This document shows positions 1,605 through 58,639 of a stretch of DNA of 64,000 bases, one piece after another. Every line of letters starts with the position of its first letter. Within the stretch, counting starts at the first letter, position 1. Source of the stretch: Panorpa germanica (taxonomy: Eukaryota; Arthropoda; Insecta; Mecoptera; Panorpidae); assembly GCA_963678705.1 (NCBI GenBank), contig OY783211.1, positions 11,732,603 to 11,796,602 of the forward strand. Direction: 5' to 3'. A program made the position numbers and the translations under genes. The notes beneath the pieces are model-generated. The model had not been told where the DNA came from, did no database searches, and was given only the letters and a program-made list of their open reading frames with translations.

Positions 1605-2937
1605 AAATAAAATAATACAGTTTTTAATGTGGTTTAAAGTTTCTTTTAAATAATGCAAATGTCAAAAATATAAGATACATAAAGAAATTTCAAGTATATA
1701 AAAGTTCAGTTTTAGAAAAAGGTTCATGAATTTAATAAATTTCTAAAAACATTAAATGTTTTAAAGCGCCTGATCCTCACGTTAATACTATAACACATAG
1801 ATTTACATAATGTGTACTTCAAAATAACGAATTGCTTCAATCCAATTTAATGTTTTATGTTTCTCAGGCTTATGACTTTATGGACATTTAAAAATAGATA
1901 GATTAGATTTCCTGATGTAGCTATGTTCGTTCTGCTATAAAATAAAGAACTGTGTCATTACATTTTAGATATCTACGATTTTCTGGCATTTATACAAATT
2001 ATGTAGGTTAAAACTATAACAGTATTACACTCACACGATGTAAAAACAAGAACGCAGAACTGCATCGTAGAAAGAGACCTTACCATATTGTTAATCTGAA
2101 TTAATGCATGATTTTAACAAAAAAACAATTCAAAATAAAAGCACTAAAAAGGAATCTGCTAACCATCTAAACCGGAAATATTGTATGTTGACATGGACCA
2201 CTTAAAATTGCATCACATCACATTTTACAAGACTAAAAACAGACGTTTATTTTAAAATATGTTCTAAGAAAAGTAATAGACCTAGTTATATGCTGGTTTA
2301 TATATATTTCAGCATTTTCAACCACTTTGTCTAATAAATTCACGCTTTTTGATCTACACAAGCAATTTATTCAAATTATATATATTTGTAAGTTAAAATC
2401 AACTTCGCCGGTCTGCAGGTGTGTTTCTAATTTATTTTCGCGATATGCTTCAGCAATTCGTTGTAAAGTAAGGGCTGAGGGTGGTTCGGTTCTGCTTGTG
2501 ATAACAGCAAATGCATTCAATGAACGAACGCGTGTTCTAACGTCAGTCAATATAGCTTTTTTTCATTTCCTGATATAATTATAACAAATTACATTTAATA
2601 AATTATTCAAATTACCATAAAAAATAAAATTAAAATGTTTATAACCAAATAAATTGATAGGTCATTAAATCTCGTAATTGAAGCGTGCCGGTGTATAAGC
2701 ATAAAATATGCGTACTAGAACCCTTTTTACGGCACAAACCAGAGGCGAATTGAGGACGCAATATATTTTCTAGGGCGTCTTATATTTCTGAATTTGATTG
2801 TTGTTTCATTTCATTTATGTGCGAGGGTAAATCAGTGACTTTTTGAATTTCCCGCGCAGCTCTCGCCACTGACCTGTATTAATAGACAACTCTCAAATTT
2901 TCAGCAAACTGCATCATTTAGCTGTGTTTGACTTAGA
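1605..2937. other. Gene-free AT-rich sequence
   Basis: The only frame of note (83 codons at 2327-2578) has no protein features and no plausible splice context. Nothing else seen. Confidence 0.65.
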
Positions 2938-4401: not shown

Positions 4402-4641
4402 CCCAGTAAACATTTTGGAGTCACTTTGCCACCATATTAAAGATGCGTTTGATGTTTTTTTATTTACAGTTTAATTTCTCACAGTCTTTCATATGAAATA
4501 TCTATTTTATCCGCTACAAATGGTGAAACTACCTTATGTGTGGGAATGCAAATGAAGATAAAGTTGATACTAACTATAATTGAACTGCAATAGTGATAGA
4601 AACGTCACAAAACAGGACACTTCACTAAATTGTTAAGCGGG
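4402..4641 (+). mobile_element. CCCAGTAAACATTT family, copy 2 (older)
   Basis: Same internal order as copy 1, but without the doubled ATTTTGGAG segment and with a decayed right end (AATTGTTAAGCGGG). Substitutions are scattered throughout. Same orientation as the other three copies. Confidence 0.8.
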
Positions 4642-4984
4642 TGACCTGCAAGCAAATTCTGATTACATTTTAAATTTGACAGAATGGTTTGCTTATACTT
4701 ACAGATTCAGATCTGCAGTTCAGATTTTGCTGTATACACTTACGATAATCGGACAGTTCGTCTGAATCAGAAACTAATTGCAGATCCGATTTGATCGTGT
4801 AAAACCCTAAAATTTTAAAATGTATCGTCAGGAAAAACAGATTAATCAAGAAACTTAGTGTTGTCTACAAGAGACCTACAGTCCTCACGAAGGTAAAATT
4901 TTGATGTTACATTTCCACAAAATAAAAAGAAGCCTGGCTTTTATATTTGCCCAGAGCTGTCGGGCAGGTTGTCCGGCACTCCAT

Positions 4985-5590
4985 CAATGGCGTAGCTAGG
5001 TAACCAAGGGCCCCGGTGCAAAAAAATAATCTGGGCCCCTAACTAAACTGTTTAGGTTTTTCAAGTCAGATATAAATATATATATAAATACTTTAAAGGT
5101 ACAAAGCTATTAGTTTATCATCAGTTCTTTATCGTGCACTGCATAGCACAGCAAAACTACTTACTAGATGTATGTGTATTGCGCTCTAAGACTCTAAGTA
5201 CAATCCTGCAGCTACTTTTGCTTCAGCTTAATCTCAACATAAACAACTCTAGAATGCGTACCTCTGCCTGAGAGAATTACGTAATAGACTTAGACCCTTG
5301 CCTGGTCCATGCTTCCCCCCTCCCTCATGTTCAGCGATAAATTTATACAGAAGTGAGTATAAAATACACTCTCAATAAAAAAAATTCATTCCTATTTAGA
5401 ATTTTTGTTATTGTTTATGTTTTTGTTATAAAAGTTTTGTAAGCATTATCGGGAATAACTATTTACTAAGAGTATTACTTCACTGTGAAACCGTTAAAAT
5501 ATAAATATAAGTTATAAAAGTCCGAGGGCCCCCTGAGCTTGGGGGCCCCGGTGCACTGCACCGACTCGCCCATACCTAGCTACGCCAGTG
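4985..5590. mobile_element. hAT-like non-autonomous element, 606 bp
   Basis: Ends CAATGGCGTAGCTAGGTA and TACCTAGCTACGCCAGTG form an inverted repeat of 17 out of 18. Eight-base flanks CACTCCAT (4977-4984) and CTCTCCAT (5591-5598) match at 7 of 8, as expected for an hAT target duplication. Subterminal GC-rich blocks (GGGCCCC) contrast with the AT-rich surroundings. No transposase frame. Confidence 0.82.
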
Positions 5591-23068: not shown

Positions 23069-24247
23069 TCACGTTTGTAAAGTTTGTTCTTGTTTCCACC
23101 AATTCATAACATCCATCATTTCATTTGGATCTTGCGTAATAATGGTATTTTCAATGTTATCTTCCAACATCATATCATCAACATCATCCATCTCTTTCTT
23201 TAGCATTATTTGTCCCGTAAAGCAAGGTGCTTCCATTTCATTTTTCAGCATAATTTGTCTCTTGTAGCACTGTATATCTATATCATCATTTAATATAATT
23301 TGTCTCACAGCTTCACCATCTTCTCCAGCAGTAATAGTCTGCACAGCATGTTCTGGAGATTCAGTCTTCAGCATAATTTGACCGGTGAAACAATGATTGT
23401 TACCCTCCCTATCTTCTAGTACACTTTGTTCAATTTCTTCTGATTCTTCTTTCAACATTATTTGCCCAGTGTAACAATGTGAATCTAATGTGTTAATATA
23501 TTTATTTATATGTGTGTTTTCCAGATTTATTGGAGACATCGATTGTTCACTATAATCATCAGATATCGATGCATCGATAATGTACCCAAAGTTTTGCCCG
23601 ATCATGTTATCACTTAGTAAAATCTGCGTTTGCTCCGGCCTAAGATTTTCATCGTTCTCATACCCAGTGGGACTAATTATTTGGTAGGTGTGCGTTGTAG
23701 GTATGTGTTCGTACTGTTGCATCGTTGGGGATGTGGAAGGATTTGAATAATCATCATCTTCCATCGGAGGACTCTGTTGGTAATCCACATAGGAACTCTC
23801 CGTGCTAGGATAGTTGTACGATGTATTTTCATTACCTTCTAAGCCATCCGATAATAAATATTCTAAACTTCTTATATATTCAACTGCCATTCTTAATGTT
23901 TCGACTTTAGATAGTTTCTTGCTGCCTCCTCTTCCGCTATTCTCGAAAGCTGCTGCAATCTCTGCAGGGATATGTTGTCTAAGCGTTGCAAAGCCATCAT
24001 TGACCAACTTCACACGGTTCCTTTCACGAGCATTTCGCCGAGCTACTGCCATTGGTTGCGTTTTTGTCTTGCGTTCTTTTTGGACATTATTTGCTACTAT
24101 TGCGGGTTTATCACTTGCTGGCGCGGGCAGAATTTTTTGCTTTTTCCTCATAATGATTATTTCACGTTTGTCGTTGTTGTTAACGTTTAAAGACGGTTGT
24201 AAAATGTTTAATTTGTTGTTATAATTCACAATACTTAACGTAGCCAT
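23069..24247 (-). CDS. Achaete-scute family bHLH proneural transcription factor, single exon, with C-terminal GQIMLK repeats
   Basis: Predicted nuclear DNA-binding protein of 392 residues. Seen: basic region at about 69-80 ([12 protein letters not shown]), helix 1 to about 94 ([13 protein letters not shown]), a loop with a Gly/Ser stretch, and helix 2 at about 111-132 ([20 protein letters not shown]). This is the achaete-scute signature. The last 17 residues ([13 protein letters not shown] then TLQT) resemble the acidic/aromatic C-terminal motif of the family. The open frame has no intron, as is usual for these genes. The ATG context (AACA before ATGG) is good, and this start gives the longest frame. 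Known of the family: heterodimers with Daughterless/E proteins bind E-boxes and specify neural precursors. Odd: residues 257-355 hold five repeats built on C-(F/Y)-T-G-Q-I-M-L-K. Helix 1 begins LVND, where I recall QVNN being common. I leave the symbol blank because achaete, scute, asense or ASH orthology cannot be settled by eye. The long frame on the other strand is a shadow. Confidence 0.95.
23183..23479 (-). repeat. Five-copy protein repeat in the proneural gene (GQIMLK-x-E units)
   Basis: Coding repeat, residues 257-355. Units are at 257-271 ([15 protein letters not shown]), 285-299 ([15 protein letters not shown]), 315-324 ([10 protein letters not shown]), 326-340 ([15 protein letters not shown]) and 341-355 ([15 protein letters not shown]). 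Lysines 266, 294, 335 and 350 each sit in L-K-x-E, the Psi-K-x-E sumoylation consensus, with acidic residues following. The third unit has Asn320 in place of the lysine. Units four and five are immediately adjacent with a 15-residue period; the others are spaced 26-28 residues apart. Confidence 0.9.
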
Positions 24248-44685: not shown

Positions 44686-45780
44686 TTTTTTTTTATATAT
44701 TAATTGTGTATGCCTTTCGGCTTTACAATCTACAGTATTATATTTCTAATACATTTCATTCCTATATACATTCCAAACTTAAAACTAAACTTAAAATAAA
44801 CTTAAAATCTTCTCGACTTTTACTACTTCCAAAAGTGCTTTCTGCTTCTTCTTCTTTTGACCCTCACTATTATTCTCCACCATCTTATTTATTCTCCTGT
44901 TTTTCCTTTCCTTCTTACTATTTCCGCCATCCACCTCTTTCCTTCACTGCCTCCCTTTAATAGCTGGCCAATATTCCTTTCGCTTGCTACTTTTTCCTTA
45001 CACTCAAACTTAATGTGCTCCAGTGTTTCGTCCTCCGCTCCACACATTCTACACTTTCTTTCCTCACTCTTTTCCCAGTATCTGTTTCCTTTTTCCTCAT
45101 TTCCCAATCTAAACCTTGCTGTTCTTCTTATGTGTTTTATGTCTTTTTCTATAAGGTACTGAGGCACATTATTTTCCCATAACCTCTTATATCTTTTATT
45201 GTAGTTACTTTTTTCTATTTTTCCCATTCTCTCCTGCTGCTGTGTCTCCTTATCCCTTCTCCTTAGCTCCTCTGCCACACTTGCGCCACCTTCTCTTCTC
45301 CTCTCTGCCTCCTCGATCGCCATTCCATTCCTTTCAAAGTATTCTTTTCTCTTTTTTGGACCTCCTCCCCCCCCATTCTTTATGTAATCCTCTCTTATTT
45401 TCTTTAAGATTTTGCTTTCCGCTCTGTTCAATTTCTCCTCGTATTTTACCGCTCTTTCCCCTGTTTTAATTCGTATCTTATCCCTCTTTAGCTCCTCCAT
45501 CACCATGTATCCTGGCGTGCACCTGTTCAGCCCTAGTACCCATTTCATGTATCTCACCTGTATTCTTTCCAACTTTTCTTGTTCCTTCCACCCCCAAACC
45601 TCTGCTCCATACGACATCATACTGGCTATCAGTCTCTCATATATCCATATTCTCTTTTGTATGTCCCCCCCAAATACCTTTTCCCCTAGTCCCCATACCC
45701 GTCGCATTGCTTGCTCTGCCTTCTTTGCCACCTCCCTTATATGCGCCTCTTCTCCATTATTCTTTTTAAAAGTGTAGAAG
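44686..45780 (-). mobile_element. 5'-truncated non-LTR retrotransposon (LINE) with poly(A) tail and target-site duplication
   Basis: Minus-strand frame from about 45771 to 44889 is the C-terminal part of an insect LINE ORF2: it begins TFKKNNGEEAHIREVAKKAEQ, continues with MMSYGAEVWGWKEQEKLE and TPGYMVMEELKRDKIR, and ends with a CCHC-type knuckle, C-x2-C-x8-H-x4-C (CRMCGAEDETLEHIKFEC), stopping at 44889. A 3' UTR of about 190 bases runs to a poly(A) run, seen as poly(T) at 44686-44694. The nine bases TTGTATGTT flank both ends (44677-44685 and 45781-45789). The reverse transcriptase and endonuclease domains are absent, so the insertion is dead on arrival. The surviving frame has no stops, which suggests a fairly young insertion. 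Confidence 0.9.
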
Positions 45781-58088: not shown

Positions 58089-58639
58089 ATGGTAATGATT
58101 AAACTAGAAAGTAATGAAGGCAAAATTTTCAAAGTTGATGAAGAAATCATGAAATGTTCCACAATCATAACATATTTGTTAGGTGAATTGGACTTGGATG
58201 ACTTGGAAGATGTTATTCCTCTTCCAAATATTAGTTCTAACATCTTAAAGAAGGTACTGAATTGATTTTCACTTGTTCTTATTTTATGTATAAAATGTTA
58301 GCCATTATTTAATGATTTAATTGTTGTCAGGTGATCAAATGGGCTATACATGATAACGATGATGATTCATCTTCTTCTGGGCAGATAATACAAGGAGTAA
58401 ACTCAGATAATTATATTTCACCTTGGGAGGCTAATTTCTTTTTTGATAGTTCTGGTGTTCTGCTTGAATTGATTCTGGCGGGCCAATATTTGGGCATTCA
58501 AAGATTGTTCGACGAAGGATGCAAAATGGCTGCAATATGGATACACGATAGAGAACCAGATGAAATTAGGTCAATATTTGAATTAAATGATGACATCCCA
58601 CCGGAAGAGCAACAAGAAATTCGACAAAAGCATACTTGA
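58089..58639 (+). CDS. Divergent Skp1-like SCF ubiquitin ligase adaptor, two exons
   Basis: Exon 1 is 58089-58253 and exon 2 is 58331-58639, separated by a 77-bp phase-0 intron (GTACTG to TTGTTGTCAG). The spliced protein has 157 residues. Seen: an N-terminal Skp1/POZ fold opening with MVMIKLESNEGKIFKVDEE, the PLPN then ILKKVIKW block spanning the splice junction (44-59), an acidic and Ser-rich insert (63-82), then PWEANFF (86-92), LLELILAGQYLGI (99-111) and the helix ending in PDEIRSIF (131-138). Known of the family: Skp1 bridges Cullin-1 to F-box proteins. Odd: it ends IRQKHT, where typical Skp1 runs on to an Asn-x-Trp-Cys-Glu-Glu-Lys end, so the last F-box-contacting helix is shortened. The ATG follows TTTCTTGTGCTACAG, itself a good splice acceptor, which suggests a 5' UTR intron. 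It is likely a diverged paralogue rather than the housekeeping copy. Confidence 0.88.

Follow-up and report, generated by a model that had tools for sequence, protein, structure and literature searches.

Synergy-control SUMO sites of steroid receptors are described in passages of PMC3373386 as limiting cooperative activation, and in the glucocorticoid receptor N-terminus more than one consensus SUMO site lies outside the DNA-binding domain, as is the case for the scorpionfly sites reported here. The receptor sites are not described in those passages as copies of a longer repeated peptide. In contrast, the scorpionfly array consists of four 11-residue copies that share an upstream Cys, an aromatic residue and a Gln. 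The hydrophobic-cluster SUMOylation motif, reportedly described by Matic in 2010 and cited in PMC3395311, resembles the scorpionfly units in that hydrophobic residues stand directly before Lys-x-Glu, but the scorpionfly sites, predicted from sequence, form a serial array. Within the achaete-scute family, the Drosophila Ase, Ac, Sc and L'sc sequences used in our comparisons are provisional versions that did not come from a database. What we take to be the Drosophila Asense tail also carries several Psi-K-x-E sites; however, its three sites (FIKDE, VIKQE and FKKE) are scattered, and the repeated C-[YF]-x-x-Q-I-M-L unit is absent. Three sites were reached by 2 of 20,000 shuffles of this provisional tail, which is taken as a lead only. 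Drosophila Scute presumably has one site, LKFE. The proneural proteins ASH, Scute and L'sc share with the array protein the family and the C-terminal motif, whereas the ASH of the scorpionfly genome contains neither the QIMLK unit nor any Psi-K-x-E site.

The array gene was found in Panorpa germanica, in a window of 64,000 nucleotides (C8:11732603-11796602) of a genome searched over 464,208,970 bases; positions without prefix are those of the window. An intact single-exon ORF of 392 aa of the achaete-scute family occupies positions 23069-24247 on the minus strand (C8:11755674), with one full-length match in the genome. Its bHLH domain (residues 69-129, 23861-24043, minus strand) is of the achaete-scute type, as attested by matches to Pfam HLH (PF00010, 8.6e-18) and, over residues 62-134, to human ASCL1 in the PDB (1.1e-16). 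The C-terminal achaete-scute motif (residues 376-385, 23093-23122, minus strand) is comparable to ..EELLDVISWWQQQ in the ASH of the same genome, where the comparison sequence reads EELLDVISWW. The first-pass annotation had claimed five related units in the tail, with Lys266, Lys294, Lys335 and Lys350 in four of them and Asn320 in the third, and this is what the translation of the intact frame contains. The array covers residues 257-355 (23183-23479, minus strand) and is in frame upstream of the C-terminal motif, so it is very likely translated. Four of the five units have the form C-[YF]-x-x-Q-I-M-L-K-x-E: unit 1 (residues 258-268, K266; 23444-23476), unit 2 (residues 286-296, K294; 23360-23392), unit 4 (residues 327-337, K335; 23237-23269) and unit 5 (residues 342-352, K350; 23192-23224), all on the minus strand and delimited by self-comparison, motif and codon analysis. 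Unit 3 (residues 312-322; 23282-23314, minus strand), recognized by self-comparison and codon analysis, has Asn320 in place of Lys; it keeps Q-I-x-L and is without Cys, aromatic residue, Lys and Glu. The best 12-residue ungapped pairs within the tail scored 58, 52 and 51, against a best score of 38 in 300 shuffles, so that the array itself, in an intact coding frame, is real. Inspection of the sequence further upstream suggested TQILLSDN (Q208; QILLSDN, residues 208-214, 23606-23626, minus strand) as a possible sixth, very degenerate Lys-less unit, which may be due to chance. A hint of zf-C2H2_11 at residues 342-350 (0.003, below its own cut-off) was taken as chance.

The array gene had been presented as proneural. 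A whole-genome search with the window protein returned, besides the protein itself, a single further strong match: a 246-aa single-exon ORF located 155 kb away (C8:11911325-11912017, minus strand), which matches the window protein at 45% over residues 10-210, ends with PEDEELLDVISWWQQQ and contains SPTPS. Judged by its sequence, this ORF is the canonical proneural ASH, and the proneural label is not supported for the array gene, which looks like asense. The two genes are linked, on the same strand and both single-exon, as described for insects in passages of PMC6283939. The ancestral insect complement is given there as one ASH and one asense, the four Drosophila genes being intronless and in one orientation; in the presence of a separate canonical ASH, the array gene is thus asense by exclusion. 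The bHLH comparisons with the provisional Drosophila sequences were consistent with this assignment, although the margins were small. Identity of the window bHLH was 53/69 to Ase, slightly above that to the ASH of the same genome (51/69), and 44-45/69 to Ac, Sc and L'sc. Querying the genome with the provisional Ase bHLH returned the window gene first, although narrowly (93.6 versus 91.2 bits; 79% versus 74% to ASH), whereas the provisional L'sc bHLH returned ASH first (102.5 versus 91.7 bits). In a seven-sequence tree a split at 96.4/85 set ASH and Ac/Sc/L'sc apart from the outgroup, Ase and the window gene; a window-Ase pair as such had no support.

The gapped alignment of the whole tail to provisional Ase was poor, its score being reached by 43 of 1000 shuffles, and the window tail aligned better to the tail of its own ASH (0 of 1000) and to that of provisional Scute (3 of 1000). 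The best ungapped segment between the window tail and provisional Ase scored 47, a value reached by 3 of 300 shuffles; it holds QYxxIPxTxTYQ, and within it residues 178-191 (23675-23716, minus strand) resemble QYIRIPGTNTYQLL of provisional Drosophila Asense. Searching the genome with the provisional Asense tail stretch gave no match and missed the window gene too, an empty answer that is uninformative. At the C-terminal motif, MMDVMNWWK of the window protein matches MIDAIDWWE of provisional Drosophila Ase without gaps. Drosophila Ase, as we take it to be, ends with MIDAIDWW, and it is therefore doubtful that asense proteins can be told by the absence of this motif. They are described in passages of PMC2315653 as being without the C-terminal motif of 16-17 residues, and the array protein, contrary to that description, has it. 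Major facilitator superfamily genes are named in passages of PMC6283939 as 3' neighbours of asense in other insects; with 9 of 382 candidates scored, none of the 11 major facilitator matches was near C8:11.7-11.9 Mb. Altogether we consider the array gene very probably to be asense, an assignment that leans in part on the provisional Drosophila sequences.

We compared the units with the SUMO motif definitions given in passages of PMC3395311. The pattern [IVL]KxE is present in four of the five units, and the strict hydrophobic-cluster form IMLKxE, the cluster being taken as the three residues before KxE, is found in all four Lys units. The 258-residue tail contains [VIL]KxE four times, which was reached in 1 of 20,000 shuffles (mean 0.15), and the looser [VILMF]Kx[DE] also four times (8 of 20,000 shuffles, mean 0.38). 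As the four copies are not independent, the question of chance applies to a single ancestral site, and a site of the strict hydrophobic-cluster form appeared at least once in 1127 of 100,000 shuffles. Seven of the 11 columns (C, Q, I, M, L, K and E) are invariant across the four Lys units and the aromatic residue is Y or F, while the x of L-K-x-E (E, T, N and K) is the only position of the 11 that differs in every Lys unit. Invariant Lys and Glu with a free x are what a Psi-K-x-E site predicts, and to this extent the SUMO-consensus reading proposed from the first inspection of the sequence was supported. Cys and Gln are, however, equally invariant, and their strict conservation may reflect the alternative raised at the same time, another binding partner. 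The statement that acidic residues follow the sites applied to units 1 and 5, where 4 and 5 of the 10 residues behind KxE are acidic, and was weak for units 2 and 4, with 1 in 10 each. In one ungapped segment the LKKE of unit 5 stands opposite the FKKE of provisional Drosophila Asense; this segment scores 30, less than the best segments of shuffles do on average (33.9), and is weak alone. The 392 residues contained no match to the SUMO-interacting motifs SIMa, SIMb, SIMr and V/I-x-V/I-V/I, and none to a phosphorylation-dependent or inverted SUMO pattern. An array of SUMO-interacting motifs, with the Lys-less units binding SUMO, was rejected as no such pattern matched.

Silent and replacement differences were pooled over the six pairs of Lys units, with 11 codons per unit. 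Silent differences per site (pS) reached 0.887, whereas replacement differences (pN) were 0.128; this dN/dS-type check, suggested along with the original description of the repeats, points to purifying selection between the copies. Different codons were used in 27 of the 44 identical-residue pairs, 22.4 being expected under independent codon choice. Identity between Lys units was 0.70-0.76 and fell to 0.25-0.58 in the 24 bases on each side of them. Neutral evolution from a star was also simulated at seven mutation levels, with 1500 runs per level. In no run did the observed number of varying third-base columns (9) occur together with 7 invariant residues; the lowest level often gave the invariance alone (0.61), but with far too little silent change. 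Saturated silent sites together with low amino-acid change indicate that the units are old and kept by purifying selection. Divergence is much greater for the Lys-less unit (pN of 0.40-0.51 over 11 codons). A recent in-frame tandem duplication by slippage, without function, would fit the spacing of exactly 15 codons between units 3, 4 and 5 (Q316, Q331 and Q346). No tandem array was however found at the DNA level at a score of at least 30, the best 45-nt copies matching at 29 of 45 bases, and the peptide was kept while silent sites became saturated. We therefore regard such a duplication as extremely improbable, and it was rejected on the silent saturation and the absent DNA-level array.

The main rival to a SUMO-acceptor array is a repeated docking peptide, C-[YF]-x-x-Q-I-M-L(-K-x-E), that would bind a co-factor several times without any SUMO, Lys and Glu being part of the contact surface and multivalency providing avidity for a co-activator or co-repressor. 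Conservation extending over 11 residues, in which Cys, Gln, Ile, Met and Leu vary no more than Lys and Glu do, agrees with this possibility, as does the joint absence from unit 3 of Cys, aromatic residue, Lys and Glu while Q-I-x-L is kept. All four Cys of the 392-aa protein occupy the same position, one per Lys unit (23192-23476, minus strand), an arrangement that also speaks for docking and for which the SUMO reading gives no explanation. On the other hand, the position that always differs is precisely x in Psi-K-x-E, which would be a coincidence if the motif were a generic docking one. Two co-factor motifs were looked for: LxxLL was present only inside the bHLH, and WRPW was absent. We regard pure docking as possible but doubtful. 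The units could also make up an activation domain, acidic and hydrophobic, or a degron, in which Q-I-M-L clusters recruit general co-activators or turnover machinery and the presence of Lys and Glu has no bearing. Fly Scute presumably recruits co-activators or turnover machinery through its C-terminal part, and residues 256-392 of the array protein are 22% acidic with a net charge of -20. The tail is also without a confident fold in a single-sequence structure model, but this model was poor everywhere: mean pLDDT was 35, zero residues reached 70, bHLH included, and it placed strands at residues 186-189 and 208-211 and in the first two units, leaving units 3-5 without any. For these reasons no use was made of it. 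Activation domains tolerate sequence change, whereas 7 of the 11 columns are invariant here over saturated silent sites, and we consider this explanation unlikely.

Back-translated into DNA, C[YF]TGQIMLK had 3 exact matches in the genome, all inside the array gene. When up to 3 mismatches were allowed, 34 matches were obtained (4 in the array gene) versus 33 for the reversed control pattern, and QIMLKxE, with Phe also allowed at Leu, gave 12 (4 in the array gene) versus 12 for the control. Nine outside matches were examined (the best 2 of 30 for C[YF]TGQIMLK and 7 of 8 for QIMLKxE), and all lay in frames of 14-62 residues; the eighth outside QIMLKxE match (L043) has a stop codon within the matched bases, and the 28 remaining outside C[YF]TGQIMLK matches all carry 3 mismatches. 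A general domain common to other genes is thus unsupported, matches outside the array gene being no more numerous than those of the control pattern. No relative was found in the viral and prokaryotic contigs scanned. A text search of papers for GQIMLK gave no occurrence, and among the matches listed for achaete-scute, asense or proneural with SUMO, and for repeated SUMO sites, the unit is described nowhere in the text displayed. For asense, SUMO and Drosophila combined, titles and abstract beginnings contain no report of Asense sumoylation, and the main text of PMC10621995, on Asense, is without the word 'sumo'.

The SUMO pathway itself is described in passages of PMC12108614, according to which Drosophila has a single SUMO gene and the pathway is active in neural stem cells, on Warts. 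In the scorpionfly genome, the same exon pair, judged by eye to encode SUMO, was seen at two loci (L064, C3:15397500-15399700, and L066, C5:19000-21800), and a divergent SUMO-like single frame ending with ..ESQSGGEM was seen at L061 (C4:4808800-4809600, minus strand).

Several other genes were noticed around the array gene. The window holds a divergent Skp1-like exon at 58316-58636 (plus strand; PF01466, 2.3e-9), a stronger Skp1 match lies about 70 kb away on the opposite side of the array gene (L046, 9156-9774, plus strand), and L049 contains a frame that is Skp1-like by eye (2362-2637, minus strand); Skp1 also occurs on the 3' side, and these frames suggest a possible expansion of the Skp1 family around the array gene. 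The 3' side also carries a bHLH split by an intron, by eye SREBP (L020, about 4526-5270), a mitochondrial carrier (Mito_carr) and a SET-domain frame (L046, 165-1298, and L047, 3155-4150). A 272-aa open frame of the window (44889-45707, minus strand), with a weak match below cut-off to a reverse-transcriptase zinc-binding domain (PF13966), is probably a retroelement remnant.

The explanation that we favour is an array of several SUMO acceptor sites in asense that expanded within the lineage, to which we give a probability of about 50%. An ancestral hydrophobic-cluster SUMO acceptor peptide near the asense C-terminus would have been copied within the coding tail long ago, with four of the five copies retained as acceptors and the Lys-less third copy representing a decayed unit. 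Ubc9 would read I-M-L-K-x-E in the acidic tail; the latter is probably disordered, although a model with a mean pLDDT of 35 is too poor to show this. Much as with synergy-control motifs, up to four SUMO moieties may then put a graded brake on the activation exerted by several Asense/Daughterless dimers at clustered E-boxes, so that the strength or duration of neural-precursor gene activity would be set by SUMO. Both sumoylation of the tail and its function as a brake are predictions made from the protein sequence. Ubc9 recognition does not require the Cys, the Gln or the aromatic residue; with Cys and Gln conserved as strictly as Lys and Glu, the unit holds more than a SUMO site alone. Acceptor and docking functions could both be true, each unit combining an acceptor with an extension that binds an E3 or a co-factor. 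More tentatively, Asense might have been SUMO-regulated before the split of flies and scorpionflies, a serial array having arisen in the scorpionfly line from a single ancestral Psi-K-K-E site some 35 residues upstream of the C-terminal WW motif; this would form a SUMO rheostat in which each 11-residue unit joins the acceptor to E2/E3 recognition.

The reassignment of the gene means that the array belongs to a likely neural-precursor gene and not to a proneural gene. If the SUMO reading is true, the array would be a natural dose series of SUMO sites within one neural-precursor factor. SUMO tuning of insect asense-class factors would become testable, as would the route by which an array arises from one regulatory site and is retained.
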